Shown here: positions 2,846-62,285 of the stretch, piece after piece
Numbering within the stretch: the stretch's first letter is position 1
Layout: every line of letters starts with the position of its first letter
From: Sipunculus nudus
Lineage: Eukaryota; Annelida; Sipuncula; Golfingiida; Sipunculidae
Assembly (NCBI GenBank): GCA_026874595.1
Contig: CM049318.1
Coordinates: forward strand, 44,062,456 to 44,126,455
Length of the DNA: 64,000 nt
Direction: 5' to 3'
Made by a program: the position numbers and the translations under genes
Notes under the pieces: generated by a model
Database searches by the model: none
Seen by the model: only the letters and a program-made list of their open reading frames with translations
Told to the model about the DNA's origin: nothing

Positions 2846-4869
2846 AACAAGGGACCTATGGGTCACGGCACTCAGCTGTTATATATGATTAAAAAATATG
2901 ATTTAGAAATGAGGCACATGCTGGTTTTATGTGGTAAAAAAATAAGCTGTATTATGAGTTGTTGTTGTTAAGCTTATGTATGATTTTGATAGTACCTTTG
3001 GAGACAGGGAAGAGGATTGATTTCATTTATTTTATTAACAAATGGAGTGCTATTGTCACACAGATTTTGACTTGGCCATATAACTTATAAGCAGAACATA
3101 TAATATAAGAGTTTAACTATTTATTAAAAAAATTTACAAATATTGTCCCAAATATAATTTTTTATTAAAAATAATAAGAGAATCGTATGATTTTTTAAAA
3201 TAAAATATAACTGAAGTGATTATTAAAATAATATTAAAGAATATATTCATGAATGCATTCATGAATACATTTTGAAAGTATTTGCACTGATATTCATATA
3301 CTTTCATTTTTACCTGAATTCCCATTCTTATGAAGGATGAGGGGCTTGACACCCATGAAGTGATCACATGGTGCCCATGAAGTGTTCACATGTCACCCAT
3401 GAGGTGATCACATGCCATGTGCTTGGCTGCACTGATTGAACTCTTAACCTATATCTGGCTGCACTGAATGAACTCTTGATCTGTTCCTAAATCTGAAACA
3501 GTTGGCAGTTTCTCAACCTATTTAAAGATACAGATTCAATCTTGGCCTGGTATATGTGTTTACACATACTGAAAGACTTTGGTTAAAATTTCTTTTTTCA
3601 AGCCGACATATTCATAAACTTTTTATCAAAATATCTAGAATAATAAAAGGTGCAGTACTTTCATTGTTAAAGGTCCAATAGTTCTGCCAAAAATCATTCT
3701 AGTAAACTTGAACAAAGGCCACCTAAGAATAATTTTTGTGCAATGTTACAGAAGATATAATTGAAATAATAATTTTGTAGAAGAACACTATTGCAGTCCT
3801 CAGTTTGAAAAAGACATAATAATGGCCATAAGACCAACTTAAGCCTATCACGACTCAACCAAAAATCAACAAACTCAGTATATTCTGATATGATTGAAAG
3901 AACCATGTCCTAGGATAATTCTTTTAAAAAATTTGAACAAATCAACTTGACAGTTTCATCATTTAGCTGAAAGAGGCTAAAATTATGAGGTTTTTTGCCC
4001 ATAAAAAACAGGTCAATGTAGGTGGCACCACCAAATCTACAACTTCAAATATGAGTCATGTGACCACTATTTGCACAATACCTGGTAATGCTAGCTTCTG
4101 TCATTTCTGAGAGTACTATGTCAGTATGCCTACTTGGCTGAATGACTGTTCAAATTTGTGTAACTCCACTAAAAGTCATCAAATACAAACCATTTGAACA
4201 AACTTGTGAGGGCTTGCCTCTGGGATCCTTTAAGTAAAATATTTAACAATTTGGCTGGACCGTCTACAAGAAGACGACTTTTAAAATATTGTCAGCTTTT
4301 TCCTTATAAAATCTAAGTAAATGCAGATAGCAAAAAAATAAGCTGAATCCCACAAAATTTGATATGTGACAGATTATTGCATAAAATCTGGGAATGGTAG
4401 CTCCTGCTATTCCTGAGAAATTATGGATTAATGTACAGATGACCAATGAACCCCGTACAAAAATAGGTCAATTCAGGTGGCGCCACCAATACCTGAATTT
4501 CATATATGACTCATGTGACCAACACTGGCAAAAAATTTGGTGATGATAGCTCTGGCTGTTTCTGAGACTGTCATTTAAGTATGATTTTTTGGACAGATGA
4601 CTAAGTTTAACTTCCTGAACAAAATTGAGGGAGATGGTATAAAAGATTATTTCTGTGAAATATTGAACAATTTGGCTTGAGTGTTTTGGAGGAGAAGTAG
4701 TTTTATAGGTTTTTTTAGCTTTTTCTCTATAAAATTTAAGAAAATTTTCAGATGGCTAATTTTTTGCATTAAATTTCATGGTGCTAGCTCCAATCATTTT
4801 CAAAATAGTATGGGTAAACGTACAGAAGACAAACCCCACCACACCATCGCATTAGTTCACAGGTTTATT
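2846..4869 (+). mobile_element. Chimeric element: A left end, B body and right end
   Basis: 2846-3333 matches the left part of the 2.6-kb A element (AACAAGGGACCTATGGGTC, arm CTCAGCTG, 24-bp palindrome at 3244-3267). At about 3334 it switches to B-family sequence collinear with 21365-22846, starting with the GGTGATCACATG repeats. It ends with a diverged B right end (CACAGGTTTATTA). GGTGGCGCCACC lies at 4476-4487. Confidence 0.8.
3340..3415 (+). repeat. GTGATCACATG short tandem repeat
   Basis: Three units of ~22 bp (CACCCATGAAGTGATCACATG and variants). The same array has one unit at 21380, four at 26967-27062 and five or six at 39567-39676. Confidence 0.8.
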
Positions 4870-7498
4870 AACAAGGGACCTATGGGTCACGACGCTCAGC
4901 TGTTATATATGATAAAAAAATATTATTTAGAAATGAGGCACATGCTGGTTTTGTGTGGTAATAAATATAAGCTGTATTATGAGTTGTTGTTGTTTAGCTT
5001 ATGTATGATTTTGATAGTACCTTTGGAGACAGGGAAGAGGATTGATTTCATTTATTTTATTAACAATTGGAGTACTATTGTCACACAGATTTTGACTTAG
5101 CCATATAACTTATAAGCAGAACATATAATATAAGAGTTTAACTATTTATTAAAAAAAATAACAAATATTGTCCCAAATATAATTTTTATTAAAAATAATA
5201 AGAGAATCATATGATTTTTTAAAATGAAATATAACTGATATGATTATTAAAATAATATAAAAGAATATATTCATGAATGCATTCATGAATACATTTTGAA
5301 AGTATTTGCACGAGTATTCATATACTTTCATTTTTACCTGAATTCCCATTCTTTATGCAAGAAATTTTATAATGGAGTACATAATCATATTCGTATTTAA
5401 ATACAATTACAAAGTATTCGCACCATGTCTGGTATTTATTCAATTTTCACCAAACAATGATGTTGAGAATCCAGAATATACAAAATTCACACATTTAAAT
5501 AATGATCATAAGTACCTGGTTTTATGGCTTTTATTTATATTAAAAAATAACTGTAAAAAATTCATTTTGGACTAATTTCACATCAATGTACACACTAGAC
5601 ACAGTAGGAATATAGATTAATATTATCAACTGCATCTTTGTCTATCATTAATTTCCTTCATATGATCCCTAATGATTAGTAATGAATAATATGATTTACT
5701 TCTTTATCATTAAAATTGAACTGAAAAATGCCATAGGTGACTGCATGGTGTTATTTGGAATATGTGACATTCTACCCATCGATACAAGATTCTTATATCA
5801 TCAGTAACTGCAAGTTAATTTCCTGTTATTATAAACTAACAAATTCCTTTTTTATTTTTCTTTAATTTGTTATTAAAAACCAATAAAAATTTATTTATTC
5901 ATTGTTTATTGTTATGTTGTTGGTTAAAACTACTAGATGAGTTGGGTTGGACACCTGGATCAACTGTGGCTGGCCATAAGCTGCCTGGATTCCTGTATGC
6001 CTCGCCTCAAGCGTGCATAATTTGATGAAAGGTCAACAAGGTCAACATACAGGTGACTCAAGAGGGGCTGGAGAGAGCCAAAGTCTGACAGGGTCTCATA
6101 AAAAACATTAATAAAAGCTACAATTTTTGGCCAATTTCTTTCAGCTTTCTAAACTAAAAAGCTGAAATGCTTATGTGTGCATGATATGAAAATTATATCA
6201 ACAGTGCTCACGGGAAACAAACGTGCCATGGTCACAGTTGGGCAAAATTTAAGGTACTAATTTTATATTTATACTAAATAAAATTTGAAAAATTCAGAAC
6301 TAATTTTGGGTATTCAATTGAATCTTGATTAAATAATGTTACATCCCTGACAAAAAAATCTCTAGCAATGCCCTTGTTAAGGGAGTAAATATATTTCTTG
6401 ATTTTTTACAATGTGCATTATGTTTGGGCCCATAACTTAAAACAATTACGCAATACTGACATCATTCTGGGATGTGCATAGAGAATGAAAAATATGTATA
6501 TTGTTTATGATTAAAGTCAGATCAGTGGTTTTGATATTAGGCAGTCTTGAAGTGTAACAATGGGTTTTTAATGGAAAAATGAAGTTTTTCATTAATATCT
6601 CGAAGGTATTAAGTCCTAGTGACCAAATTCTTGGCATGGTAGGGGATTTTGGAGACATCTAACTGTATGCTGAATTTAAGGAACTTAGAGCTGAAGCTGG
6701 GGAGCTGAGCTTTTGCAAACTGCATAACACTAGCTTGATGTAAACAATATGTTACAAGGTGCTTGAAAACTTGATTAAAATCTACAGTTTTTGATCAACT
6801 GGTTTCAAATTTTTGGTGTTAACAGTTGAAATGCTGACAAAAACATGCTGTGAAAATTAAATCCACAGTACTTACAGGAAAAAAACGTGCCATGGTCAAA
6901 GTTGGGCAAAATTTAAGGTACCAATTTTTTATTTTTATTAATATTTTAAAAAATTTAAAAGATTTTCATCTAATTTTGCGTATACAATTTAATTTTGATT
7001 AATTAAAGTTATATTACTGGAAAAAAGGTCCACAGCTTTTACATTTTTTGTGTTAAGTGATCAAATATCTTTCCTTATTTTTTTCAAAATGCATTATGTT
7101 TGGGCCAAGAACTTTTTTAAATTAAATAATACAGACATAATTTCTGGCATGTACATAGGAACTATATAGAGGAATATTTATGGTAAATATGAGGAAAAAC
7201 AGATGAGTGGTTTTGATATTAGGCAGTCCTAAAGTGTGAAAATAGGTTTTTAATAAAAAATTGAGGTTTTTCCTTAATTTCTCAAAGGAACGAAGTTGCA
7301 AAGACCCAGTTTTCGGCTTGGTAGGAGATCTTGGGGACATCTAACATTATGCCGAATTTTGGATTCCTAGGTCTTACGGTTTCAAAACGTGCCACATCTA
7401 CGGACGGACGGACGGACGGACGGACGGACAGACAGACGGACGGACGACGGACAATGGAGCACGACTATAGCTCAGATGACTTATAGTCAGCTGAGCTA
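4870..7498 (+). mobile_element. Complete family A element, 2.6-kb type
   Basis: Left end AACAAGGGACC, with left arm GCTCAGCTG following the diverged palindrome. The right end is the (GGAC)n tract at 7401-7447 and the hairpin at 7468-7498 (right arm GTCAGCTGAGCTA). It contains the 24-bp palindrome (5268-5291) and two ~690-bp internal modules. It is near-identical by eye to 56251-58860. No Rep/helicase ORF, so non-autonomous. The structure fits a Helentron-associated element (HINE): inner left arm, terminal right arm, 3' hairpin, no target duplication. Confidence 0.85.
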
Positions 7499-8544
7499 AA
7501 AATTAATACAGATGCATATTGAATGCAAAATTATAATACAGATATATCTCACTGATGGCAAAATCTTGAATTAATTTGACTATGAATACCAATTATTTAT
7601 AATCCATGTACAGCCATCTTTATATACCATCAGAGAGCTGTATAGCTGTGATTGTAAACATTGCCTGGCATGAGGAATATCTAAAAATCATAAATCTACA
7701 TTTTTTAAAAGCTTTTAAAAAACATTCTTGTCAATATTAACCATAGATAACCTGAAATCTAAATGTCTAGAGGCATGATGTAATAAATGCTGATAAACTG
7801 ATGCCAGTCTAGATGTATCTAGATGTATCGGAGTATCTGCTTCACACAGCTAACATATATGGTAAAATGACTCAATTGAACCTTTATAATTCAGCCAAAA
7901 TTCATTCTTTGGAACCATAAAAGACAATTATTATAAGAATTATTCAGGGGATTATTCTTGTAAAATATTAAACAAATTGGCCTCAGTAGGGTCAGTCAAA
8001 AAAATTTTTACAGGTTTATAACTCATATGGGAAAATACAGCAAAATGGCTAAGTTAAGCTTCCCATAACTCAGCCAAAAGTCACTGAACTGAGACCATTT
8101 GAACAAACTTGAATTATCAACATCTAAGGATAATTAATGTGTGATATTTAAGAATTTGGCCCAGTGGTTTTTGTTGAGAAGATTTTTTTAGCCACTTAGC
8201 TAAAATGGGCTGCTATGTCATATGACTAAATTCAGCTTCCCATAACTTAGCCAAAAGTCACTGAACTGAGACCATTTGAACAAACTTCAGAAAGCACTAC
8301 CCTAGGATCATTTCTGTGCGATATTATTTTATAGCTTTTTCCCTATAAAATCTAAGAAAATGCAGTTAGCCAAAAAATAAGCAAAATCCGATAGAGTTTT
8401 TTAGATGACTAATTTTATGCATAAAATTTGATGATGCTAATTCTTGCGGTTTTCAAGATAGTATAGGTTTACGTACAGACGCAGGCCGACCGCCGACGGA
8501 TGCCGGACGACGCCACACCATCGCATAAGCTCACTGGTTTGCTA
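7499..8544 (+). mobile_element. Family B element with an alternative left boundary
   Basis: Starts directly after an A right end with TTAATACAGATGCATATTG, the same start as the B copy at 22847. It ends with CCATCGCATAAGCTCAC and TTTGCTA, a B-type right end, preceded by GACGGATGCCGGACGACG. It lacks the usual AACAAGGCCT left end. Internally it carries three diverged repeats of a ~180-bp segment marked by CAGCTTCCCATAACT. Confidence 0.75.
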
Positions 8545-9275: not shown

Positions 9276-9404
9276 CTAAAAAGGTCTCTCAATGTGTCAA
9301 GAATTAAGATTCTAGGTCCAGTCTTTACGATTTGTGCCCTGTTAACAGATGTTCACATTTTTAAAGGTCTCAAAAATAGAGAAAAAAATTCGTAAAAAAT
9401 TTAA
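9276..9404 (+). repeat. Tail of an A ~338-bp unit
   Basis: Matches the end of the A tandem unit (GATTCTAGGTCCAGTC, TCTCAAAAATAGAG, ATTCGTAAAAAATT). The next left end is inserted in its A-rich tail. Confidence 0.7.
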
Positions 9405-11304
9405 AACAAGGGACCTATGGGTCTCAACGCTCAGCTGACGTTAACCTTGAAGGTAAAAATCTGAAATAATATCAAATGGAGATAAAGTGTAAGAGGAAGA
9501 GGTAATAAAGGCCATGGTTGGTTTATATGATTGGTTTGTATTGATGAGCAGGAAATTGTTGCAAAAAATATTTTGTGACCTGACCATGTGTTTCCTAATG
9601 TTGAAACTAAAGCATATGAGCAGTTTGTGAACAAATGATCTGTACTATTACCATGATCATTAATTGGTTTTTTGATTAACTGTTGACATTTCAGTAGTTT
9701 ACACATTTGTTCAATCGAATCTTTTTTTTTGTATAATATTATTAAATATATATGTATTTTTTTTATGAAATGTATACAGTTGAAATAGAGCTAATAAACA
9801 ACATAAAACAGGGCAAACAAAGCCTGATCTCAAATTCTGCTGAGGCAGGAAAATAATGAACAAATGTTTGTATTAAATCCATTTTTTTTATCACATCAAT
9901 TATTTTCTAATTTAAGTTTATATTTCTATACATTTCCAATTTAACATATATATCTGAATATAAAAGTTGATTCATAATTCTCAATTGCATCATCATAAAT
10001 CTCAATCTTGTCAGATAACACCACATCATGCATACAAATGTTTATTTATTTTTTACCACAAAAATATATCTTTCAAATCTGCAAAACAATAAATATCTAA
10101 AAATAATACTTGATTTAGATTTCACAATTTTTAATTGTGTCTTTAATTATCCATAATGTGCTTCATATTTTATAATAATTTAAGCATACTGATGGGTTCA
10201 ATTATATTTGTTAAAATCATTTAAAAGAAATTTGATTTCTTTAAAAATGTTACATTACACAACATTGCATCTTCTTGATTACACCTTGAATTATTTTTTC
10301 AAGGAAAGTTTTTGCATATCGGAGTGGAAACAGCATTACAATTAAGGAGATACAGTGAAAACAATAACAATTAGTGCATAACACTTGGTGGGTTGGGTTT
10401 GCGGGGGTTGGGGGGGGGGGTGATTGGGGTGGTGATATGAGAATAACTGTACACCTGTCACAGCAGGGGATCTCCCCCAGTGACTGTAACAAATCAGAAA
10501 CCCTGGCATAGCTGACTTCCAGTGACCTGGAGTGGGACCCTGCATCTGTAATCAAAGCAAGTGACTACAGAAAAAAAATCAATAACTAGCTTAATTTTCA
10601 AGCTTTTATTTTCAAATTTCAGATTTAGACAAACTAAATATTTATGTTTACATGCTGTGAAAATTAAATCAATGGTGCTTACAGGAAAAAAACGTGCCAT
10701 GGTCAAAGTTGGGCAAAATTTAAGGTACTGAAATTTTTTTTATGCTAATAACTTAAAAAATTTACAAAATTCAGATCTAATTTTCGGTAAACAATTGAAT
10801 CTTAATTAAACATAGTTATATACTTGAGAAAATAGACTCTAGTTTCAAAATTTTTCATGTTAAGTGAGTTATTATTTTTCCTGATTTTTTACAAAGTCCA
10901 TTATGTTTGGGCCCATAACTTAAAGAATTTATAGTTTACAGACTTAATTTCTTGCATGTACATAGGAACAATATAGAGGAATATTTATGGTAAATATGAG
11001 GAAAAACAGATGAGTGGTTTTGATATTAGGCAGTCCTGAAGTGTGAAAATAGGATTTTAATAAAAATTGAGGTTTTTCCTTAATTTCTCAAAGGAACGAA
11101 GTCGCAAAGACCCAGTTTTCGGCTTGGTAGGAGATCTTGGGGACATCTAACAATATGCTGAATTTTGGATTCCTAGGTCTTACGGTTTCAAAACGTGCCA
11201 CATCTACGGACGGACGGACGGACGGACGGACGGACGGACAGACGGACGGACGACGGACAATGGACCACGACTATAGCTCAGATGACTTATAGTCAGCTGA
11301 GCTA
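9405..11304 (+). mobile_element. Complete family A element, 1.9-kb type
   Basis: The left end is AACAAGGGACC with CGCTCAGCTGAC as arm; the right end is (GGAC)n at 11207-11258 plus the hairpin at 11274-11304. The left third (TTAACCTTGAAGGTAAAAATC onward) is shared with fragments at 20.0, 47.7 and 55.6 kb. An 11-G run at 10410-10420 sits at the same place as the 16-G and 39-G runs at 24935 and 49247. No coding potential recognised. Confidence 0.82.
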
Positions 11305-11655
11305 AAAACAGGTGGCACCACCAGTCTGCAGGAACTGATGAAACTTCTCATGATCAATATGTATGCAAAAATTCATGACCATCAGTGATGTAGTTAATGA
11401 GATATTGAAGTTTTTGTATGAAATTTTGAATATTCTGGGGGTTGCTTTGGGGCCCCATAGCTCGAAGGATATGGGTAACAGAGACCTAATTTCTGGTTTC
11501 CAAGGAGATTTTTTATGGACCTCTCAGAATGTAAAATTACAAAATTCTAGGTCCAGCGGTTACAATTTGTGCCAGGTTAATGGACAGACGGACAGACGGA
11601 CGGACGGACAAAGAGTGATCGCTATAGCTCAGATGACTTACAGTCAGCTGAACTA
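11305..11655 (+). mobile_element. Single A unit with its own right end
   Basis: One ~338-bp unit, starting CAGGTGGCACCACCAGTC, followed by a short (GGAC)n tract (11581-11610) and the terminal hairpin (11625-11655, right arm mutated to GTCAGCTGAACTA). It is the shortest right-end module in the window. Confidence 0.8.
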
Positions 11656-14476: not shown

Positions 14477-14499
14477 CTGTATGATACAAAGCAACTCTT

Positions 14500-20565: not shown

Positions 20566-22846
20566 AACAAGGCCTACTGGCCTAATGCGAACCTGTGCAT
20601 TGGGAAATACACCAGGTATAATGCTTCAATGCTGGACAATTACTTTTCATGTATATGAACTATGCAAGTACTAAACATTTTGAATAAAAAACAATTACAC
20701 AAACATCACTGCTGAAATTCTGGCATAGGTGCACACAACACTAAAAAGATTGTAGCTGGCACCACCAGTCTTGTATACAAAGAAGCAATCAGAGATATAT
20801 ACATAAGCCCAATTTCAGACTGCTATATCAAACCCCTCCTGAGAAAAACGTGTGCAAAAGTCATGGTAGGTGGCGACACCTGTCTTGTGAGTGAGAAAGC
20901 CATCAAAGACACATAGACAGGTCAAAATATTAGGCCAATACATCAAACTACCTTGAGTCTGATGCCTGGGGCTGACCAGGCTTAGGTGAGAAAGGCTGTT
21001 GCCCCGAGTGAACTGTGACAAATTGCTTGCTCAGACTACTGCACTGAGTGAACTCATGACCTGCACCTGGCTAGACTGAGTGAACTTTTGACCTGTACCT
21101 GGCTGCACTGAGTGAACTCTTGACCTGTTGCATAATCTGACACAGTTGGCAGTCTGCCAAAGCTATAAATAGGATGCAGCTACTGCACTGAGTAAACTAC
21201 TGACCCATACCTGGCTGCACTGAATGAACTCTTGACCTGTTGCCTAATCTGATACAGTTGGCAGTTTGCCAAAGCTATAAATAGATCCAGACTGACCTCT
21301 AGCCTGTTGCCAAATCTGAAATAGTAGCCACACCATTGCATAAGCTCATGCAAGGGCCCTGCCCTGAGGGGCTTGACACCCATGAAGTGAACACATGCCA
21401 TGTGCTTGGCTGCACTGATTGAACTCTTGACCTATATCTGGCTGCACTGAATAAACTCTTGATCTGTTCCCAAATCTGAAACAGTTGGCAGTTTCTCATC
21501 CTATTTAAAGATACAGATTCAATCTTGGCCTGTTGGTATATCTGTTTACACATACTGAAAGACTTTGGTTAAAATTTCTTTTTTCAAGCCAACATATTCA
21601 TAAACTTTTTATCAAAATATCTAGAATAATAAAAGATGCAGTACTTTCATTGTTAAAGGTCCAATAGTTCGGCAATTCTAGTAAACTTGAACAAAGGCCA
21701 ACTTAGAATAATTTTTGTGCAATGTTACAGAAGATATAATTGAAATAATAATTTTGTAGAAGAACACTATTGCAGTCCTCAGTTTGAAAAAGACATAATA
21801 ATGGCCATAAGACCAACTTAAGCTTTTCACAACTCAACCAAAAATCAACAAACTCAGTATATTCTGATATGATTGAAAGAACCATGACCTAGGATAATTC
21901 TTTTGAAAAATTGAACAATTCAACTTGACAGTTTTATCATTAAGCTGAAAGAGGCTAAAATTATGAGGTTTTTTGCCCATAAAAAACAGGTCAATGTAGG
22001 TGGCACCACTAAATCTACAATTTCAAATATGAGTTATGTGACCAACATTTGCACAATACCTGGTAATGCTAGCTTCTGTCATTTCTGAGAGTACTATGTC
22101 AGTATGCTTACTTGGCCGAATGACTGTTCAAATTTGTGTAACTCCACTAAAATTCATCAAATGCAAACCATTTGAACAAACTTGAGAGGGCTTGCCTCTG
22201 GGATCATTTATGTAAAATATTTAACAATTTGGCTGGACCGTCTACAAGAAGATGACTTTTAAAATATTGTCAGCTTTTTCCTTATAAAATTTAAGTAAAT
22301 GCAGATAGCAAAAAAAATAAGCTGAATCCCACAAAATTTGATATGTGACAGATTATTGCATAAAATCTGGGAATGGTAGCTCCTGCTATTCTTGAGAAAT
22401 TATGGATTAATGTACAGATGACCAATGACCCCCGTACAAAAATAGGCCAATTCAGGTGGTGCCACCAATACCTGAATTTCATATATGACTCATGTGACCA
22501 ACACTGGCAAAAAATTTGGTGATGATAGCTCTGGCTGTTTCTGAGACTGTCATTTTAGTATGCTTTTTTGGACATGACTAAGTCCAACTTCCTGAACAAA
22601 ATTGAGGGAGATGGTATAAAAGATTATTTCTGTGAAATATTGAACAATTTGGCTTGAGTGTTTCAGAGGAGAAGATTTTTAAAGTTTTTTTTAACTTTTT
22701 CTCTATAAAATTTAAGAAAATTTTCAGATGGCTAATTTTTTGCATTAAATTTCATGATGCTAGCTCCAATCATTTTCAAAATAGTATGGGTAAACGTACA
22801 GAAGACAAATGCCGCCACACCATCACATTAGTTCACAGGTTCACTA
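20566..22846 (+). mobile_element. Complete family B element
   Basis: Left end AACAAGGCCTACTGGCCTAA, then the arm GCGAACCTGTG; right end ATTAGTTCACAGGTTCACTA (arm CACAGGTTC, one change). The interior holds ~34-bp repeats around CTGCACTGAGTGAACTC (21040-21470), one GTGAACACATG repeat, and segments shared with 3334-4869. No ORF of known kind. Like family A, it has an inner left arm and a terminal right arm. Confidence 0.82.
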
Positions 22847-24251
22847 AAAATTAATACAGATGCATATTGAATGCAAAATTATAATACAGATACATCTCAC
22901 TGATGGCAAAATCTTGAATTAATTTGACTATGGATACCAATTATTTATAATCCATGTACAGCCGTCTTTATATACCCACAGAGAGCTGTATAGCTTTGAT
23001 TGTAAACATTGCCTGGCATTAGGAATATCTAAAAATCATAAATCTACATTTTTTAAAAGCTTTTAAAATACATTCTTGTCAATATTAACCAAAGATAACC
23101 TGAAATCTAAATGTCTAGAGGCATGATGTAATAAATGTTGATAAACTGGTGCCAGTCTAGATGTATCTAGATGTATCTGTGTATCTGCTTCACACAGCTA
23201 ACATATATGGTAAAATGACTCAATTGAACCTTTATAATCAACCAAAATTCATTCTTTGGAACCATAAAAGACAATTATTATAAGAATTATTCAGGGGATT
23301 ATTCTTGTAAAATATTAAACAAATTGGCCTCAGTAGGGTCAGTCAAAAAAATTTTACAGGTTTATAACTCATATGGGAAAATACAGCAAAATGGCTAAGT
23401 TAAGCTTCCCATAACTCAGCCAAAAATCACTGAACCAAAACCATTTGAACAAACTTGAATTATCAACATCTAAGGATAATTAATGTGTGAGATTTAAGAA
23501 TTTGGCCCAGTGGCTTTTGAGGAGAAGATCTTTGTAGCCACTGTGCTAAAATGGGCTGTTAGAGCATATAACTAAATACAGCTTCCCATAACTCAGCAAA
23601 AAGTCACTGAACTTAAGACCTTTCGAACAAATTTCAGAAAGCACTACCCTAGGATCATTTCTGTGCGATATAAAAGTATTTGGCCATATGGTTTCAGAGA
23701 AGAAGTTTTTTGTAGCCGTCAGTATGATACGGGCACTGATGACCCCCGTACAAAAAAGGTCGAAGCAGGTGGCGCCACCAATACCTCAATTTCAGATTTG
23801 TCTCATGTGAACAACATTGGCATAAAATTTGGTGATGATAGCTCCAGCCGTTTCTGAGATTGTAATTTTAGTATGCTTTTTTGGACAGATGACTAAGTTC
23901 AACTTCCTGCAACTCGGCCAAAAATTACCGAACTTAAACCATTTGAACAAACTTGAGAAAGGTTGTTCCTGGAATCATTTCTGTGAAATATTGGACAATT
24001 TGGCTTAACAATTTTGGAGAAGAAGATTTTTAAAGCTTTTTAAGCTTTTTCCCTATAAAATCTAAGAAAATGCAGTTAGCCAAAAAACAAGCAAAATCCG
24101 ATAGAGTTTTTTAGATGAATAATTTTTTACATAAAATTTGGTGATGCTAACTCCTGCCGTTTTCAAGATAGTATGGGTTAATGTACAGACGACGGACGAC
24201 GGACCACGGACAGACTACGCCATACCATCGCATAAGCTCACAGGTTCGCTA
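22847..24251 (+). mobile_element. Family B element with alternative left boundary
   Basis: Starts TTAATACAGATGCATATTG immediately after a B right end, as at 7499. It ends CCATCGCATAAGCTCACAGG then TTCGCTA, a perfect B right end, preceded by GACGACGGACGACGGACC. GGTGGCGCCACC is at 23768-23779. Confidence 0.78.
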
Positions 24252-29873: not shown

Positions 29874-30047
29874 AACAAGGCCTACAGACCTTATGCGAAC
29901 CTTTGCAAAGTTTGGGAGTATGAATGAAGGTTTATTTTTCAAATTTAATATTGATCCTCTTATGTTCTGCATATCTACCTTAGTCATTATGACTTCAGCA
30001 AAATGGACGTTTCGGACCTGCAAGTTTTGAACTAAGACATTTTAAAA
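29874..30047 (+). mobile_element. B left-end fragment
   Basis: AACAAGGCCTACAGACCTTA and arm GCGAACCTTTG (one change), followed by ~140 bp that end where the D left end begins. Confidence 0.7.
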
Positions 30048-32530: not shown

Positions 32531-32714
32531 AACAAGTGACCCATGGGTCATGACGCTCAGCTGACTGGGAAGAGATTTGCAAAAGGAAATTTTATCACCA
32601 GAATGGTAGTATATACCCATTCAACTGAAGCATCAAACAGATTAACCAACAGGCCAAGATTTAGTCTGTATTTATATATCTCAAAAATAGAGAAAAATGT
32701 GTAAACTTTTAAAA
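32531..32714 (+). mobile_element. A left-end fragment ahead of a D element
   Basis: AACAAGTGACCCATGGGTC, arm GCTCAGCTGAC, then ~150 bp identical in layout to 38672-38850, ending AATAGAGAAAAATGTGTAAAC. A D left end follows directly. Confidence 0.8.
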
Positions 32715-33885: not shown

Positions 33886-36640
33886 AAAAATACAGGTGGC
33901 TCCACCAGTCTGCAGAAACTAATAAAAACACTTAATGGTCAATATCCATGCAAAAAAATCATGGTGATCTCTGCATTAGTTGTTCAGATACTTCAGTTTT
34001 TGTATCAAATTGTCCATTATTCTGAGGGATACTTCGGAGTCCTATAGCTTGAAGGATATGGGTAACAGAGACCTAATTTCAAGTTTCCACAGGCACCTTT
34101 CATGGGCCTCCTTGCATGACAAGAATGAAGATTCTAGGTCCAGTTGTTGCGATTTGTACCCTGTTGACAGATAACCACATCTTTAAAGGTCTCAAAAAAA
34201 AGAAAAAATTCGTAAAAATTTGAAAAAAAAAAATAGAGGTGGCACACCCAGTCTGCAGAAACTGATGGAACAGCTCATGATCAATATGTATGCCGAAAAT
34301 CATGACCATCAGTGTTGTAGTTATTGAAATACTGCAGTTTTTGTATCAAATTTTCCATTATTCATGGGGGGGGGGATATTTTGGACCCATACAGCTTAAA
34401 GAATATGGGTAACAGAGACCTAATTTCAAGTTTCCATGGAGACTTTTCATGGGTCTCCCTGTGTGTCAAGAATGAAGATTCTTGGTCCAGTTTTTATGAT
34501 TTGTGCCCTGTTAACAGATGTTCATATCTTTAAAGGTCTCAAAAATACAGAAAAATTTCGTAAAAAAAACCGAACAAATACAGGTGGTGCCACCAGTCTG
34601 CAGAAACTTATGAAACACTCCATGATCAATATCCATGCAAACAATTATGGTTATCTCTGCATTAGTTGTTCAGATACTTTAGCTTTTGTATCAAATTTTC
34701 CATTATTCTGAGCTGTACTTTGGAGTGCCATAGCTCAAAGGATATGGGTAACAGAGACCAAATTTCAGGTTTCCATGGAGACTTATCATGGGTCTCCCTG
34801 TGTGTCAAGAACGAAGATTCTAGGTCCAGTCGTTACGATTTGTACCCTGTTGACAGATAACTACATCCTTAAAGGTCTCAAAAATGGAGAAAACAATTCA
34901 TGAACATTGAAAAATACAGGTGGCGCCACCAGTCTGCACAAACTGATGAAGCATCTCATGATCAATATGTATGTCGAAAATCATGACCATCAGTGATGTA
35001 GTTAATGAGATATTTAAGTTTTTGTATGAAATTTTTTACTATTCTGGGGGGTAATTTTGGGCCCCATAGCTCGAAGGATATGGGTAACAGAGACCTAATT
35101 TCTGGTTTCCATGGAGACTTTTCATAGGTCTCTCAGTGTGTCGAAAATGAAGATTCTAGGTCCAGTCGTTACGATTTGTGCCACGCTAACAGATGACAGC
35201 ATCCTCAAAGGTCCCAAAAATAGAGGAAAAAATCGTAAAAAATCAATCAGTACAGGTGGCGCCACCAGTCTGCAGGAACTGATCGAACATCTCATGATCA
35301 ATATGTATGCCAAAAATGAAGACCATCAGTGATGTAGTTATTGAGATATTGAAGTTTTTGTATGAAATTTTTTACTATTCTGGGGGGTACTTTGGGGCCC
35401 GATAGCTCAAAGGATATGGGTAACAGAGACCTAATTGGGTAACAGAGACCTAATTTCTGGTTTCCAAGGAGATTTTTCATGGGTCTCCCTGTGTGTCAAG
35501 AACGAAGATTCTAGGTCCAGTCGTTACGATTTGTACCCTGTTGACAGATAACTACATCCTTAAAGGTCTCAAAAATGGAGAAAACAATTCGTGAACATTG
35601 AAAAATACAGGTGGCGCCACCAGTCTGCACAAACTGATGAAACATCTCATGATCAATATGTATGTCGAAAATCATGACCATCAGTGATGTAGTTAATGAG
35701 ATATTGAAGTTTTTGTATGAAATTTTTGACTATTCTGGGGGGTAATTTTGGGCCCCATAGCTCAAAGGATATGGGTAACAGAGACCTAATTTCTGGTTTC
35801 CATGGAGACTTTTCATAGGTCTCTCAGTGTGTCGAAAATGAAGATTCTAGGTCCAGTCGTTACGATTTGTGCCACGCTAACAGATGACAGCATCCTCAAA
35901 GGTCTCAAAAATAGAGGAAAAAATCGTAAAAAATCAAACAGTACATGTGGCGCCACCAGTCTGCAGGAACTGATTGAACATCTCATGATCAATATGTATG
36001 CCGAAAATGAAGACCATCAGTGATGTAGTTATTGAGATATTGAAGATTTTGTATGAAATTTTTTACTATTCTGGGGGGTAATTTTGGGCCCCATAGCTCA
36101 AAGGATATGGGTAACAGAGACCTAATTTCTGGTTTCCAAGGAGATTTTTCATGGACCTCTCAGTGTGTCAAGAATTAAGATTCTAAGTCCAGTCTTTATG
36201 ATTTGTGCCTTGTTAACAGATGTTCACATTTTTAAAGGTCTCAAAAATAGAGAAAAAAATTCGTAAAAAATCGAAAAATACAGGTGGCGCCACCAGTCTG
36301 CAGGAAGTGATGTAACATCTCATGATCAATATGTATGCCAAAAATCATGACCATCAGTCAAGTAGTTAATGAGATATTGAAGTTTTTGTATGAAATTTTT
36401 GACTTTTCTAGGGGGTACTTTGGGGCCACATAGCTCGAAGGATATGGGTAACAGAGACCTAATTTCTGGTTTCCAAGGAGATTTTTTATGGACCTCTCAG
36501 AATCCCAAGTTACAAGGTTCTAGGTCCAGCGGTTACGATTTGTGCCTGGTTAACGGACGGACAGACGGACAGACAGACAGACGGACAGACGGACAAAGAG
36601 TGATCGCTATAGCTCAGATGACTTTCAGTCAGCTGAGCTA
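33886..36640 (+). repeat. Array of eight A ~338-bp units with right end
   Basis: Units start near 33895, 34233, 34581, 34919, 35256, 35609, 35946 and 36284 with GGTGGCGCCACC or a one-base variant. The same order repeats in each: CTGCAGAAACTGATG, ATGATCAATAT, ATTCTGGGGGGTAC, GATATGGGTAACAGAGACC, ATTCTAGGTCCAG, TTACGATTTGTGCC. A 16-bp local duplication (GGGTAACAGAGACCTAAT) sits at 35418. The last unit runs into a mixed GGAC/AGAC tract and the A hairpin (36610-36640). Confidence 0.88.
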
Positions 36641-38671: not shown

Positions 38672-38850
38672 AACAAGTGACCCATGGGTCATGATGCTCA
38701 GCTGACTGGGAAGAGATTGCAAAAGATATTTTATCATCTGAATGGAAGTATATACCCATTCAACTGAAGCATCAAACAGATTAACCAACAGGCTGAGATT
38801 GTGCCTGTATTAATATATCTAAAAAATAGAGAAAAAATGCGTAAACTTTA
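38672..38850 (+). mobile_element. A left-end fragment ahead of a B element
   Basis: AACAAGTGACCCATGGGTC, arm GCTCAGCTGAC, body as at 32531-32714. It stops at GAAAAAATGCGTAAACTTT, where a B left end starts. Confidence 0.8.
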
Positions 38851-41303
38851 AACAAGGCCTACAGGCCTAATGCAAACCTGTGCATATGGATATACACCAG
38901 GTATAAAGCTTCAGTGCTGAACCACTACTTTTCATATATATGAACAATGTAAGTACTAAACATTTTGGACAAGAAACAATACACAAACATCACTGCTGAA
39001 ATTCTGGCATGGGTGCACACAACACAAAAATGATTGTAGGTGGCACCACCAGTCTTGTATACTACAAAGCTATTTGACATGTACACATATGCCCAATTTC
39101 AGGCTGATATATCAAATTCTTCTGTAGAATTAAGCAGGCACATACACTTTGCAAAAGTCATTGTAGATGGCGACACCTGTCTTGTGAACGAGAAAGCCAT
39201 AAAACACATAGACAGGTCAGAATATCAGGCCAATACATCAAACTTACCTTGAGTCTGATGCACAGGGCTGACCAGGCTTAGGTGAGAAAGGCTGTTGCCT
39301 CGAGTGTACTGTGACAAATTACTGGCTCAGGCTACTGCACTGAGTGAACTCTTGACCTGCACCTGGCTAGACAGTGAATTTTTGACCTGTACCTGGCTCC
39401 ACTGAGTGAACTCTTGACCTGTTGCATAATCTGAAACAGTTGGCAGTCTGCCAAAGCTATAAATAAATCCAGGCTGACCTTTTGCCTATTCCCAAATCTG
39501 AAATAGTAGCCACACAATTGCATAAGCTCACAGATTGGCTCCATATGCAGCCCTGAGGGGCATGACACCCATGAGGTGATCACATGATACTCATGAGGTG
39601 ATCACATGATACTCATGAGGTGATCACATGCTACCCATGAGATGATCACATGCTGCCCATGAGGTGATCACATGCCTTGTGATCGGCTGCACTGACTGAA
39701 CTGTTGACCTATATTCGGCTGCACTGAATGAACTCTTGATCTGTTGCCAAATCTGAAACAGTTGGCAGTTTCTCAACCTATTCAAGAAACGTACACAATC
39801 TTGGCCTGTTATGTAACTCTGCTAAAATTTATCCAACACACACCATTTAAACAAACTTGAGAGGGCTCGCCTCTGGGATCATTTCTGTAAAATTTGGACA
39901 ATTTGGCTGGACTGTTTAGAAGAAGAAGACTTTTACAAGTTTTTTTCAGCTTTTTCCTTGTAAAATCTAAGTAAATGCAGATAGCAAAAATAAGATGAAT
40001 CCATCAACATTTGATATGTGACAGATAATTGCATAACATTTGGGGATGGTAGCTCCTGTTAGTGAGAAATTATGAGTTAGTGTACAGATGATATGTAATT
40101 TCATAAATCTACATTTTTTAAAAGCTTTTAAAAACATTCTTGTCAATATTTTCCATAGATAACCTGAAATCTAAATGTCTAGAGGCATGATGTAATGGAT
40201 GCTGATAAACTGGTGCTAGGCTAGATGTATCTGCTTCACACAGCTAACATATTTGGTAAAATGACTCAATTCAATCTTTATAATTCAGCCAAATTCATTT
40301 TTTGGAACCATAAAAGACAATTATTATAAAAATGATTAAGGGAATTATTCTTGCAAAATATTAAACAAACTGGCCTCAGTATCATCATCAGTCGAAAAAC
40401 TTTTGTAGGTTTATAACTCATATGGGAAAATACAACAAAATGGCAAAGTTCAGCTTCCCGTAACTCAGCCAAAAAGCACTGAACCAAAATCATTTGAACA
40501 AACTTGAATTATCAACATCTGAGGATAATTAATGTGTGAGAATTAAGATTTTGGCCCAGTGGTTTTTGAGAAGAAGATCTTTGTAGCCACTGAGCTAAAA
40601 TGGGCTGTTATGGCATATGACTAAATTCAGCTTCCCACAACTTAGCCAAAAGTCACTGAAAAGAGACCATTTGAACAAACTTCAGAAAGCACTACCCTAG
40701 GATCATTTCAGTGCAATATTAAACATTTTGGCCATATGGTTTCAGAGAAGGAGTTTTTTGTAGCCCTCAGTGTGATACAGGCACTGATGACCCTGTACAA
40801 AAAAGGCCGATGCAGGTGGCACCACCAATACCTCAATTTCAGATATGACCTATGTGACCAACATTGGAATAAAATTTGGTGAAGCTAGCTACAGCCGTTT
40901 CTGAGATTTAAATTTTAATATGCTTTTTAGCACAGTTAACAAAGTTCAACCTCCTGTATCTCAGCCAAAAATCTCTGAACTGGAACCATTCGAACAAACT
41001 TGAGAAAGATTGTTCCAGGTATCATTTCTGTGAAATATTGGACAATTTTGTTGGACAGTTTCAGAGAAGAAGATTTTTAAAGCATTTTTTAGCTTTTTCC
41101 CTATAAAATCTAAGAAAATGCGGTTAGAAAAAAAATAAACAAAATCCAATATAGTTTTTTGGATGACTGATTATTTGCCAAAAAATTGGTGATGTTAGCT
41201 CCTGCCATTTTTGAGAAAGCTATTGGTTAACGTAGAGACACCGCACGACGCACAACAGAGGTTGCATGACGCCACACCATCGCATAAGCTCACAGGTTCA
41301 CTA
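38851..41303 (+). mobile_element. Complete family B element, 2.45 kb
   Basis: Left end AACAAGGCCTACAGGCCTAA, arm GCAAACCTGTG (one change); right end CCATCGCATAAGCTCACAGG then TTCACTA. It contains five or six GAGGTGATCACATG repeats of ~23 bp (39567-39676), one or two more than the copy at 26967. Collinear with 26268-28945. No ORF of known kind. Confidence 0.85.
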
Positions 41304-41630: not shown

Positions 41631-42709
41631 AACAAGTGACCCATGGGTCATGACGCTCAGATGCCAAGCATGACCTGCGACATCATGGGCTGAGATTCAC
41701 AACTTCCAGTTAAATTTTGAAGACCCAATTTGCCAATATGTTGAAATTTTCTACGACAACAGAAATATATATCACCTATGTCTGGTTAAAACACAGTGAA
41801 TTGATGGTCTGAGGAAAATGCATGATTGTTAAGGTATCCAGAACTATTCCCATAGCTTCCTTGATACCTGTCAGTCTCGAAAGGAACACCACAAAGGGCA
41901 AATATAAGATCAAAATATATAGCAAAAAATCAAGGAAATCCATGCAAGAATTATTGAGAAACAGGTGCTTCTGTATGAATTTTTATTCAATACAAGCCAA
42001 CTGTACTGCACTTTCATATATGAAGATAATATTTATTAAGAAATATTTGACCCTATCCTTTGCAAGATTACATTAATATACATCCGACTGCCTTCACTTT
42101 AACAGTTCTTGAGATAATATGATGAAAAGGAATTTAAAGATGGTTGCCTGGTGGCCATTTTGGACTTCTGACAGGTCTGAAATCAGATAACAACCATTCT
42201 CTAAATCGGACCAAAAATTGAAGGAAAATTACTGAAACTGCACTGAAAAAAGGATTTCTAAGGTGGCTAACTGGCAGACAAAATGGATTTCTGACAAGTC
42301 TGACATTTGATATCTCACATCCTCCCATAAAAGACCAAACTTGGAGCAAATTCTCCAAATGATGTTACAGTAATGAATGTCCAAAACAATTCAAAAGGAA
42401 TGTTCAGGCGCTCATATCAGATTTATAGATATGCAAATGTAAAAGTGTAGGTCCAATATTTTTTTATTATCACTCTGCTTTTCAATGGGGTCAGCAGGGT
42501 TGGTAAACTGCAAAACCTGAAAGAAAAGAAATGCAGAAAGCATGACTAGAGTCTTGTAATAAAATAAAGCCATCCAAAATCAAGTACACATCCACATATT
42601 ATGAGAACAAACACTTGCTTTTATATGTGGTGATTTATATAAAAAAATTCAGTTATCTAGGAAACTTTGTTTATTGCTATGATTCCATAAAATAAACTGC
42701 AAAATGTTC

Positions 42710-42980
42710 CCATCATTTAATAAATCAGTAGCTATACCTTAATACTATACTCTCATAGTGTTAATTCCTGGCTGAAGTATTCCAACAACAGTGTTTTGTT
42801 ATGCAGTAACGAGGTACTTATCACTCAGCCTTATCACTTAATAGCCTGATACAAAAGGGAGTCATATGTCACCAGTGTCACTCACAATTACAGCCACAGG
42901 TTGAGATGTACCAGCTGGAGTGCAAGCTTATATATACAAGAAAAATAGAGATGGTCTACAAAATAAGTTGACCTGATATA
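42710..42980. other. Interval with no recognised repeat
   Basis: AT-rich, no ORF or family match seen; probably part of the surrounding element. Confidence 0.35.
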
Positions 42981-43419
42981 TGACCTTGGCCTTTTGCCCA
43001 CATATCAACTGGATTCTCTCTGAATGATGGGTAACTACTAACCACTTACATCTGGCCGGGTGTAATTACTTAGCAACCAATGAGTGAATAACTTAGACCT
43101 GCAACCTTTAACCTCCTGACCAGCTGACCTCAAAATCAATTAGTTATTTCTTCATGCAAAAAGACCCATAAATATGAAGTTTGAATCACATTGAGTGATG
43201 CATAGATGTGGCATATGTGAAAGACTGAAGGTTTGGGTTGAACAGTTTCACTTGAAATATGTTCACAAGCATTTAGAACAATATTGTGACATTGACCTTA
43301 GACTTTTTGAACTCAAATTCAACAGGCTTCTTCCCCTATTGGTAGGTAAGCCATATATGACAGATGGAAAGTATAGATTGAAAAGTTTGCCTGAAAATGA
43401 CTCCACGCAAGAAGAGGTG

Positions 43420-43720
43420 TGAACTTGACCTTTGACCTCAAAATCAACAGGTCTTTTCCCCTGTTGGCAGAGAAGCGATATCAGTGCTGAAAGGTTTGGA
43501 ATGAAAGGTCTAGCTTGAAATGTGTCCACAACTTTTTCAAAGAAGTGGATCCTGTGACCCTGACCTTTGACCTTGTGACTTCAACATCTATAGGATTCTT
43601 CTCCCACTTAGTAGGTGAGCTATATGTGAAAGATCAAAGAATTGGGATGAAAGGTTTGGCTTAAAATGCATCCACAGGCTTTTCAAAGAAGTTGGTTCTG
43701 TGACCTTGACCTTTGACCTT
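43420..43720 (+). repeat. TGACCT half-site block
   Basis: Three units about 140 bp apart, with CTTGACCTTTGACCTC (43428), CCTGACCTTTGACCTTG (43558) and CCTTGACCTTTGACCTTG (43703), each followed by the ATTGGCAGGTGAGC type of sequence. Confidence 0.75.
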
Positions 43721-44049
43721 GTGACCTCAAAATAATTATGGTTCTTCCCCTGTTGGTAGGTGAGCTGTATGTGAAAGATGGAAGGTTTGGGATGAAAATT
43801 TTGGCTAAAAGAATTATTTCTGGGGGGTGCAAACACACCCCATAACTTCGAGAATATAGGTCACAGTGACCTAATTTCAGGTTTGCAAGGAGATCTTTTT
43901 AGAACCTCTAAGACTGCATAGGGTTCATGGCCCTAGCCCCTACGGTTACGATTTGTGCCCTGCTAACGGCCGGCCGGACGGACAGACGGAAGGACGACGG
44001 ACAAAGACCCATCGCTATAGCCCAGCATGACTGAAAGTCAGCTGAGCTA

Positions 44050-49285: not shown

Positions 49286-49286
<1 letters not shown>

Positions 49287-51596: not shown

Positions 51597-54402
51597 CTAG
51601 ACATTTCTTGGCACCGCAGGTGCCAGAGTATCCCCAGACATAGTAGGCCCCCCCTTTATAAATAGACCCCCATTTTTAGCAGCATATACTAACACTTGGC
51701 ATATTTATTGTTTCTTCCATCTAACAATCCACAATCTTGTTGAAGATGTTGGTCCTGTGACCTTGATCTTTTTAAAGATGTGTCCTGTGACCTTGACCTT
51801 TGACCTCATGACCCCAAAATCAATTCTGGTCTTGCTTTTCCAATGGGACATATGCAAGTTAAGTTTGAAATCTATACATCAATAAAGCAGGAATTATCAC
51901 CCAGAAACTAATTTTTGGACAGATGGCTCCTGTGACCTTCACCTTTGACCTTGTGACCTCAAAATTGATAGTGTTCTTCCTCTCTTGGCAGGAGAACTAT
52001 ATGTGCAAGATGAAAGATCTGAGATGAAATGTTTGGCTGAAAAATGCATCCACATCTTTTTAAAGATGTGTCCTGTGACCTTGACCTTTGACCTCATGAC
52101 CCTAAAATCAATTTGGGTCTTACTTTTCCAATGGGACATATACAAGTCAAGATTGAAATCCATACATCAATAAAAGCAGATATTATCATCCAGAAACTAA
52201 TTTTTGGACAGATGGCTCCTGTGACCTTCACCTTTGACCTTGTGACCTCAAAATTTATAGGGTCTTCCACTCTTGGCAGGTGAACTATATGTGCAAGATG
52301 AGAGATCTGAGATGAATTGTTTAGCTGAAAATGCATCCACAATCTTTTTAAAGAGGTTTCCTGTGACCTTGACCTTTGACCTCATGACCCCAAAATCAAT
52401 TCAGGTCTTGCTTTTCCAATGGGTCAAATTCAAGTCAAGTTTGAAATCCATACATCAATAAAAGAAGAAATTATCATCCAGAAACTAATTTTTGGACAGA
52501 TGGCTCCTGTGACCTTCACTTTTGACCTTGTGACCTCAAAATTGATAGGGTTCTTCCATTCTTGGCAGGTGAACTATATGTGCAAGATGAAAGATCTGAC
52601 CCAAAATCAATTCAGGTCTTGCTTTTCCAATGAGTCAAATACAAGTCAAGTTTGAAATAAATACATCAATAAAAGAAGGAATTATCATCCGGAAACTAAT
52701 TTTGGGACAGATGGCTCCTGTGACCTTCACCTTTGACCTTGTGACCTCAACATTGATAGGGTTCTTCCTCTCTTGGCAGGTGAACTATATGTCCAAGATG
52801 AAAGATCTGAGATGAAATGTTTGGCTGAAAATGCATCCACATCTTTTTAAAGATGTGTCCTGTGACCTTGACCTTTGACCTCATAACCTCAAAATCAATT
52901 TGGGTCTTGCTTTTCCAATGGGACATATATAAGTCAGGTTTGAAATCCATACATCAATAAAAGCAGATATATCATCCAGAAACTAATTTTTGGACAGATG
53001 GCTCCTGTGACCTTCACCTTTGACCTTGTGACCTCAAAATTGATAGGGGTCTTCCACTCTTGACAGGTGAACTATATGTGCAAGATGAAAGATCTGAGAT
53101 GAATTGTTTGGCTGAAAATGCATCCACAATCTTTTTAAAGAGGTTTCCTGTGACCTTGACCTTTGACCTCATGACCCCAAAATCAATTCTGGTCTTGCTT
53201 TTCCAAAGGGTCAAATACAAGTCAAGTTTGAAATCCATACATCAATAAAAGAAGGAATTATCATCAAGAAACTAATTTTTGGACAGATGGCTCCGGTGAC
53301 CTTCACCTTTGACCTTGTGACCTCAAAACTGATAGGGGTCTTCCTCTATTGGCAGATGACTTACATGTGCAAGATGAAAGGTCTGAGATGAAATGTTTGG
53401 CTGAAAATGCATCCACAATCTTTTTAAAGATGTGTCCTGTGACCTTGACCTCAGGACCCCTAAAATAAATTTGAGTCTTGCTTTTTCAATGGGACATATA
53501 TAAGTCAAGTTTGAAATCAATACATCAATAAAAGCAGGAATTATCATCCAGAAACTAATTTTTGGACAGATAGCTCCTGTGGCCTTGACCTTTGACCTTG
53601 TGACCCCAAAATTTATATGGATCATCCACTATTGGCAAGTGAGCTATATATTCAAGATGGAAGACCTAGGATGAAAGTTTGGCTTAAAATGCATCCACAG
53701 TATCTTTTAAAATGCCAGTCCAGTGACCTTGACCTTTGAACTCATGACCCTAGAACCTAAAGGGTTCTTACTTTAGTGGTGGGCCATACATAAGTCATGT
53801 TTGAAATCCATATGGCTATCAACACTGGAGATATCATAAGAGGTGTGTGATTTTCACCATATATGGCAATATTCAAGGTCAAGGCCACTATCATAGGAAA
53901 GGTCATGACCCCAATTTAAATAAACATCATCCCATAACCCATACCTATGTATATGCATAATATAAAAGAAATCTGTCCATTAGTTTTTGACTTATAATGC
54001 TCACAGTACTGTAAGGTGGGAATTTTGGGGGTATTAAACGGCACGAAAACAAGTAAAGAATAATAGGTGGCGCCACCAGTTTCTGGAACATGACAACTCT
54101 ATTTATGATCTTCCATCAAGTTGATTTTGGGATAAATCCATGCAAGATTTCTTGAGATATTAAAGAATTTGTGTGATTTTCCCCAAAATTGGACCTGTTC
54201 AAGGTCAAGGACACTCTCCTATTAAAGGTTATGACCTCATTTTAAATAGGCGTCCTCCTCTCACCCATATCTATACATATACCAAGTTTGGTAAAGTTCC
54301 GTGAAATATTTTTTGGGTTATCGCGCCAACAAGTTTTATATGCGGCGGCGGCGGCGGGACCGGTATGAAAACATAGTATCTCCCGACTTTGTCTGGGGAT
54401 AC
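51597..54402 (+). mobile_element. Complete family C element nested in an A element
   Basis: Left end CTAGACATTTCTTGG, with the palindrome GGCACCGCAGGTGCC (51610-51624) and arm GTATCCCCAGAC (51628-51639). The right end is a hairpin from GTATCTCCCGAC to GTCTGGGGATAC (54376-54402). The GC-rich GCGGCGGCGGCGGCGGG tract precedes it. The flanks GTGAAAA and AATTAAATCC restore the uninterrupted A sequence except for at most two extra A. The body is a half-site array. No ORF of known kind. Confidence 0.85.
51750..53750 (+). repeat. TGACCT half-site array inside the C element
   Basis: About fourteen sites, alternating CCTTGACCTTTGACCTCATG and CCTTCACCTTTGACCTTGTG at ~145-bp steps (~287-bp dimer; e.g. 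51788, 52076, 52362 and 52863, 53150). TGACCTTTGACCT is the reverse of AGGTCAAAGGTCA, a perfect DR1 nuclear-receptor site; TGACCTTGA includes the TCAAGGTCA type of monomer site. Confidence 0.88.
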
Positions 54403-55040: not shown

Positions 55041-55043
55041 AAA

Positions 55044-58860: not shown

Positions 58861-58863
58861 AAA

Positions 58864-59016
58864 ACAAGGGGCCCATGGGTTGCGTCGCTCAGCTGAATTC
58901 TGGAAAATATTAGTAACTGCAAAATATTTTTATTTCTTATGGTTTTTCCATGTATATTACCATTTGAAAAGCTATGAGGAAATGGCCCAGCTTAAATGAA
59001 ACTCTGTAAATTATAA
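58864..59016 (+). mobile_element. A left-end fragment, head-to-tail
   Basis: ACAAGGGGCCCATGGGTTG with CGCTCAGCTGA starts three bases after the preceding right end and is cut by the next left end at 59017. Confidence 0.75.
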
Positions 59017-62000: not shown

Positions 62001-62285
62001 TCAGATACTTGAGCTTTTGTATCAAATTTTCCATTTTTCGGGGGGGTACTTCGGAGCCCCATAGCTCAGAGGTTATGGGTAACAGAGACCTAATTTCAGG
62101 TTTCCAAGGAGATTTTTCATGGTACTCCCTGGATGTCAAGTTAGAAGATTCCAGGTCCAGTCATTATGATTTGTGCCTGGTTAACGGACAGACAGACGGA
62201 CAGACAAACCGACAGACAGACGGACGACGGACGACGGACCAAGAGTGATCGCTATAGCTCAGATGACTTTCAGTCAGCTGAGCTA
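59017..62285 (+). mobile_element. Complete A element built of ~338-bp units
   Basis: Left end AACAAGTGACCCAGGGGTC, arm CGCTCAGCTGAC. There are short units of ~150 bp at 59100-59800, then full units with GGTGGCGCCACC at 59865, 60203, 60540, 61238, 61576 and 61914 (GGTGGAGCCACC at 60901). An internal right end (tract 60810-60845, hairpin 60862-60892) sits in the middle; the final tract and hairpin are at 62185-62285. The units at 61238 and 61576 are almost identical, so this array expanded recently. Confidence 0.85.

Follow-up and report, generated by a model that had tools for sequence, protein, structure and literature searches.

The window analysed here is a stretch of 64,000 nucleotides from Sipunculus nudus (contig C13:44062456-44126455; the genome searched measures 1.43 Gb). 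It is populated by copies of four families of mobile elements, termed A to D, which are very probably non-autonomous Helentrons (HINEs, of the Helitron2 group) lying on the minus strand. All A-D ends that we found in the window are on one strand, and a self-BLAST of the window (E <= 1e-8, simple repeats filtered) returned 778 direct matches and 0 inverted ones. The end design of these elements adds families to a known group. The one-way facing of neighbours and genes would be new, if it holds, and this strand behaviour is the part of the analysis that most deserves specialist attention.

Four families of elements and their ends

A first-pass annotation had proposed four families, each built from a palindrome, an inner arm and a terminal arm, and counts in the window and genome bear this out. 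Palindrome ends number 21 for A, 4 for B, 1 for C and 2 for D. When window counts were compared with dinucleotide shuffles, the A palindrome was found 17 times at <=2 mismatches (0.29 in shuffles) and the A arm 38 times at <=1 mismatch (0.31). The B palindrome gave 6 matches (0.07) at 4 places, with matches on both strands at two; the B arm gave 8 (0.30), the C palindrome 1 (0.00) and the C arm 2 (0.12). The D right arm alone, at 2 mismatches, is not above chance in the window (5 versus 1.86). Family D is judged to be real because its 30-base 5' hairpin is abundant genome-wide (938+922, or 1,860, at <=1 mismatch), with 0 for the reversed control. The same type of reversed-string control accompanied the other genome counts: 10,844 versus 3 for the A palindrome, 2002+1992 (3,994) versus 0 for a 31-mer A end, and 2011+2053 (4,064) versus 0 for a 29-mer B end. 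Exact or near-exact end copies number about 1,900-4,100 for each of A, B and D; family C was counted in the window, where its palindrome occurs once. The boundaries of the copies coincide with the palindromes and arms. Of 549 self-matches of at least 100 bp, 17 have their two left edges on marks of a 3' end and 43 have their two right edges on marks of a 5' end; with shifted marks the means were 0.03 and 0.02, respectively, and the maximum was 2 in each case.

Read on the minus strand, A and B alike start with TTAGC and end with TTGTT, and C and D alike start with TTGTAT and end with TCTAGTTTT. “Unrelated”, the annotation's word for the four sets of end sequences, is too strong, given the start and end letters shared within A/B and C/D. 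The 5' repeats on this strand are AGCTCAGCTGAC (A), GCGAACCTGTG (B), GTATCCCCAGAC (C) and GTATTCGCCAAAA (D), and in A, C and D the repeat has an inverted copy further in. The short inverted repeats of A, B and C are asymmetric, being terminal on the 5' side and subterminal on the 3' side; in D the two arms differ by two mismatches. The 3' subterminal inverted repeat (subTIR) stands ~19-32 bp from the element end, as counted on the folded end sequences, and in all four families a palindrome is found by sequence between this repeat and the 3' end. The 5' ends of A, C and D form strong hairpins (4, 1 and 1 copies folded; 0/200 shuffles), the four A copies folding at -6.4 to -10.6 kcal/mol with 0/200 shuffles each. 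A GTCC microsatellite lies beside family A 5' ends, and satellite-like tandem repeats are central in C and D elements and also found beside A ends. The individual elements are collected in Table 1.

Table 1. HINE copies, isolated ends and an associated tandem array in the window
Feature	Position	Strand	Evidence and remarks
Family A HINE, both ends	4870..7499	-	left = 3' subTIR + palindrome; right = 5' subTIR hairpin by GTCC microsatellite
Family A HINE, both ends	9405..11305	-	empty sites, e.g. 36217-36335 (93%); A-run length inexact there
Family A HINE, both ends	41631..44049	-	arms; empty sites, e.g. 35522-35640 (90%); A-run length inexact there
Family B HINE without 5' hairpin	20568..24250	-	ends, empty site, fold
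Family C HINE with ~283-bp tandem repeats	51597..54402	-	five empty copies, tandem repeats
Family D HINE with ~280-bp tandem repeats	32715..33885	-	ends, tandem repeats; no clean empty site found
Composite from D 5' end (right) to A 3' end (left), passing over the D 3' end	32531..33885	-	mark spacing 1322 bp
Double 3' end: B, then A ~180 bp further	38672..38885	-	end matches
Second family D 3' end	30046..30095	-	end matches
First of 21 family A 3' ends, all on one strand	2849..2880	-	end pattern
Last of 13 family A 5' ends (hairpin subTIR) by full pattern	62252..62289	-	pattern, folding
~336-bp satellite-like tandem array, units begin AAAAATACAGGTGG, repeated HINE insertion site	33886..36554	.	

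The annotation had also singled out a constant left palindrome as potentially new. It had taken the elements backwards, so that this “left palindrome” is the known 3' palindrome and cannot stand as a novel feature; its “terminal arm” is the 5' subterminal repeat on the minus strand, which folds on itself in A, C and D and not in B. A palindrome or hairpin beyond the 3' subterminal repeat is described by Thomas 2014 (PMC4067079), by Bao and Jurka 2013 (PMC3627910) and for the oyster (PMC7492417), and fungal relatives follow the published scheme too (PMC5148889). The closest likeness in layout, as distinct from sequence, is to Cg_HINE of Crassostrea gigas (PMC7492417), which has subTIRs of 11-12 bp, an inner inverted repeat on the 5' side, a GTCC-type microsatellite, satellite-like repeats, a 3' subTIR followed by a palindrome, and a T-rich target with no target-site duplication. 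Helentron/HINE and DINE-1 elements (PMC4067079) likewise have subTIRs near the 5' end, a 3' palindrome, a TT target and variable terminal Ts, although in mite HINEs the 3' subTIR is 38-60 bp from the end. Helitron2 (PMC3627910) shares the asymmetric inverted repeats, a 5' hairpin and a 3' repeat that precedes a hairpin and lies 20-30 bp from the end; family B differs from it in having no 5' hairpin. The end design is therefore known, and as far as could be told, A-D are new families of HINEs.

A Helitron1 origin (5'-TC, CTRR-3', A|T target) does not fit, as the elements start TTAGC or TTGTAT and their target lies within T-runs. CTAG precedes the T-run in C and D.

Insertion sites and a probable common machinery

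The empty-site comparison comprised 35 flank joins searched against the window, with 54 spanning hits. Five joins were discounted as realigning to neighbouring ends (A_38675_45077, A_41634_45077, A_56254_58859, A_58866_60891 and A_58866_62284), and two more were set aside, A_2849_11303 as probably a wrong pair and D_32723_33885 as gapped. The A element at 4870-7499 has a paralogous empty site at 22787-22905, with 93% identity over the junction and 7 A versus 5 A once left-out bases are counted back. The B element has one empty copy (48177-48279, 83% identity, 8 A versus 6 A), and the C element has five uninterrupted copies, at 58178, 6797, 1547, 25812 and 47022 (82.5-95.8%), with two extra A. 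All three elements thus lie in A/T runs, and the filled sites have two A/T more than the empty ones, without a longer duplication. At the empty sites of the other two complete A elements the A-run differs inexactly, and the window joins contained no clean empty site for family D. Whether the two extra A/T are element bases or a 2-bp duplication cannot be said, an ambiguity found in the literature as well.

These sites bear on the class of the elements. Duplications typical of another transposon class, which the annotation had named as grounds for abandoning a Helentron assignment, were not seen beyond 2 nt at the clean A, B and C empty sites. Neither the ends nor the empty sites fit a symmetric DDE transposon with terminal inverted repeats (TIRs) and a fixed target duplication. 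The inverted arms at both ends could also suggest MITE-like TIR transposons or some other class in which the palindromes arose by coincidence; the asymmetric arm position, the T-run target, the absence of duplications >2 nt and the agreement with the published HINE layout make this reading highly improbable. The Helentron/HINE assignment itself is supported by layout, A/T-run insertion, the GTCC microsatellite, the central tandem repeats and genes for Rep, helicase and endonuclease in the same genome.

The annotation had further supposed that a common machinery acts on the different ends, and composite elements favour this view. The window contains one element with a D 5' end and an A 3' end (marks 33856 and 32534, 1322 bp apart). 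In the first 25.3 Mb of contig C1, an A 3' end is found 1282-1322 bp away on the same strand at 14 of 47 D 5' ends. Double 3' ends, B plus A, also recur, ~180 bp apart in the window and 212 and 216 bp apart at two places on C1. Composites of this type would originate when replication passes the D stop and uses the next 3' end, that of A. Their recurrence supports a shared machinery and also the polarity assigned to the elements, and they constitute natural evidence for one machinery accepting different ends. We infer that one enzyme set serves all families.

Candidate enzymes are encoded elsewhere in the genome. Helitron_like_N gave 143 matches (150 of 195 genome candidates scored), seven of them with open frames of >2,200 codons, and both of the Rep-helicase frames examined carry Helitron_like_N and PIF1. 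The first, in C11:50374905-50393904 (L036+L035+L039), is an open 2,235-codon frame, scanned in two pieces, with DUF6570, OTU, Helitron_like_N, PIF1 and Exo_endo_phos (51.5 bits versus a cut-off of 24.5). The second, in C13:9105249-9113248 (L037), has 2,420 codons, was scanned without its last 55 codons, and has its endonuclease below the cut-off. As separate observations, a 3.6-kb stretch on C7 (L007) is 99.7% identical to the region of the C11 frame, and the N-terminus of the L037 frame matches the herpesvirus tegument-protein domain model PF04843 (9.3e-12), a type of domain that we take to be deubiquitinase-like.

Three results count against the simple HINE scheme. Three copies of the family B 5' end gave no hairpin when folded (39-150 of 200 shuffles did as well). 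The 3' palindromes of A and D fold no better than shuffles (31-115 and 44-72 of 200, respectively); they are conserved as sequence and unexceptional in folding energy. Finally, no autonomous copy with A-D ends was found: in two autonomous-type elements (14-20 kb each), scans for hairpins, inverted k-mers and microsatellites did not reveal the elements' own ends. The Rep elements are tied to A-D by layout rather than identity; the autonomous partner is here without a link to the A-D ends, a difference from the Helentron/HINE and DINE-1 systems (PMC4067079).

Orientation of neighbouring copies and of host genes

The uniform facing of the elements extends beyond the window, in which the family A end pattern occurs 21 times on the plus strand and 0 times on the minus strand (<=6 mismatches). 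The orientation lists are limited to 100 places each, taken from the beginning of C1. There, the first 100 A and 100 B ends fall into 56 same-strand runs, compared with a minimum of 74 in 10,000 shuffles, and one run holds 22 same-strand A/B copies over 919 kb. D ends within 2 kb of an A end (15 of 47) and B ends within 1 kb of one (2 of 100) were dropped, after which 230 insertions of A, B and D remained. Their pairs share a strand in 9/10 cases at <5 kb, 20/20 at 5-10 kb, 29/31 at 10-20 kb, 38/43 at 20-40 kb and 86/112 at 40-80 kb; the share is 0.61-0.63 for 80-640 kb, 0.47 at 0.64-1.28 Mb and 0.51 further out. Pairs of different families alone behave in the same way, with 11/11, 13/14, 21/23 and 50/65 in the bins from 5 to 80 kb. 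Genome-wide, both orientations occur, the per-strand totals being near equal for A, B and D ends. The Cg_HINE paper (PMC7492417) likewise states integration “in both orientations”, its consulted portions reporting no local orientation domains or gene co-directionality. A skew of target runs does not set the orientation, since A-runs and T-runs are balanced in the window (801 versus 721 at >=4, 302 versus 312 at >=5, 127 versus 133 at >=6, 59 versus 36 at >=7), and we reject it as a cause.

Host genes were sampled through two protein families. From 108 exon matches to PDZ, 30 loci were cut; 11 on small bacterial-looking contigs were dropped, leaving 19 host loci. Seven stretches between same-strand PDZ or I-set exons, for which a shared gene was assumed, brought the total to 26 host genic loci. 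Animal-type multi-exon genes occur in this genome, for example a series of PDZ exons that keep to one strand along 140 kb of C4 and a long I-set gene on C16. HINEs were present in introns or exon flanks at 9 of the 26 (L042, L046, L061, L062, L064, L066, L071, L072 and L077), and at 9/9, in 8 genes, they are co-directional with the gene (two-sided sign test on 8 genes, p=0.008). At the first eight gene loci, matches divided 0 versus 170 by strand. Two D ends, at 28 and 41 kb from an I-set exon (C1:16025271, +), also match the direction of that exon. A fifth HINE-like family (start TTGTCCCCCACTTC, end GAAGTGGGGGACATAATTTCCACAAATTTGCTTGTT) is co-directional too in L041, L065 and L066, where only mismatch-free end matches were used; loose matches (<=3 mismatches) occur on both strands and were left uncounted. 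As to its structure, this family has a TTGTCCCCCACTTCC start, a TTGTT tail and a CTGT/GTCC microsatellite, with an apparently whole copy of ~460 bp in L066. In literature searches directed at orientation and strand choice, and in the portions consulted of PMC13286980, PMC5738225 and PMC13124064, we found no report of local or gene co-directionality for Helitrons.

Rep proteins of the Helitron class act on single-stranded DNA. A requirement for a single-stranded target would make the coding strand (by transcription) and the lagging-strand template (by replication) the candidates, and the agreement with gene direction favours transcription. We therefore propose, with a probability of roughly 0.4, that insertion is strand-directed by transcription: the HUH Rep would attack single-stranded coding-strand DNA in transcription bubbles or R-loops, and throughout the genome HINEs with different ends would follow the direction of their host gene, forming a fossil map of the direction of germline transcription. 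Read 5' to 3', the element begins after TT with a 5' subterminal repeat, which in A, C and D folds on an inner copy of itself; a GTCC microsatellite (A) and often tandem repeats come next. The 3' subterminal repeat and then the palindrome follow, and between the palindrome and the closing TT there is a tail of between a few and ~13 nt. A Rep/helicase supplied in trans would start at the 5' end, peel off one strand as far as the 3' repeat/palindrome, where it would stop, and join this single strand into a T-run. The target strand would be set by local single-strandedness, most likely that of the coding strand of transcribed regions, such that copies run with the gene.

The co-directionality at 9/9 HINE-bearing genic loci would also be expected under selection, if HINEs insert both ways and gene-opposed copies are purged, for example through cryptic splice or polyadenylation sites; the leaning of the control repeats described below points the same way. 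The agreement among exact-end copies, 49/51 at 5-20 kb, is near total rather than partial, and the L046 and L071 copies, 93-94% identical to window copies, are already co-directional, which speaks weakly against slow selection. We regard selection as somewhat unlikely. Replication, the other source of single-stranded DNA, could act through insertion into the lagging-strand template where forks are co-directional with genes. It has a bacterial precedent in IS200/IS605 (PMC5371812), in which transposition is also single-stranded and orientation tracks a cellular process, and the 919-kb run of 22 copies would be long for a single gene. The concordance is mostly lost by 80-160 kb, though, and element strand agrees with gene direction in the 8 tested genes, so that the HINEs, unlike the replication-tied bacterial elements, appear gene-direction-tied so far as tested; replication is a rather unlikely cause. 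Finally, orientation might be inherited, if HINEs enter other HINEs in a fixed sense through a strand-specific target and nested clusters grow one way. Indeed, A, B and D copies share one AT-rich stretch of A bodies, and barley Helitrons favour an asymmetric target (PMC5738225). This explanation is hard to stretch to pairs 20-80 kb apart (124/155 on the same strand) and hard to extend to agreement with the gene strand, and we find it the least likely of the three.

Several observations weigh against strand-directed insertion by transcription or reduce the force of the gene data. The genes sampled are few and come from two protein families, and 17 of the 26 host genic loci have no window-like HINE sequence. 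At two of the nine positive loci the match is weak (38 bp in L064; 310 bp at 73.5% in L066). An I-set exon at C1:4665768 (+) disagrees with a B end 18 kb off (C1:4647549, +) if they belong to one gene, and at a distance of 1.8 kb from one of the D places on C1 there is an A end on the opposite strand. Control repeats near HINEs on C1 also lean. Within 100 kb, the TIR control (the inner string of the element at window 12015-14074, 933 places at <=2 mismatches) split 2 versus 7 (9 places), and a reverse-transcriptase motif split 2 versus 6 (12 places, 1 tie, 3 without a neighbour). Within 25 kb both controls gave 1 versus 3, and HINE families mutually gave 64 versus 1 (pairs counted from both sides). 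The controls are too sparse to be called random or biased, and a general orientation effect on all repeats is possible.

The near-complete local orientation across end families, together with the gene agreement (8 genes), would be a direct clue to how eukaryotic rolling-circle transposons choose their target strand, to our knowledge an open step in their transposition. The pattern can be checked in any annotated HINE-rich genome.

Other features of the window and assembly

The window has no open frame of >=150 codons, and its tRNA scan found 0. A Pfam scan of 10 of its 50 frames of >=85 aa gave nothing above the cut-off, Rfam gave no match at gathering scores, and viral contigs scanned for one A-end string gave 0 matches. 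Contigs C61-C119 (L048-L053, L057-L060, L067) carry near-identical PDZ frames of 465-552 codons in several copies, so that contigs from symbionts or contaminants seem to be part of the assembly. A MITE-like repeat is found in L041/L073; a pattern drawn from it gave 10 matches and is ill-suited as a control. Satellite-like arrays of ~336-338 bp occupy 33886-36554 and 59643-62185 of the window; the unit begins with an A-run, and several HINE 5' ends adjoin them. The 2.06-kb element at 12015-14074 has 27-bp terminal inverted repeats (TACCGTAAAATCTCCACTTAAAACCGC), and its inner string occurs 474+459 times genome-wide (<=2 mismatches).

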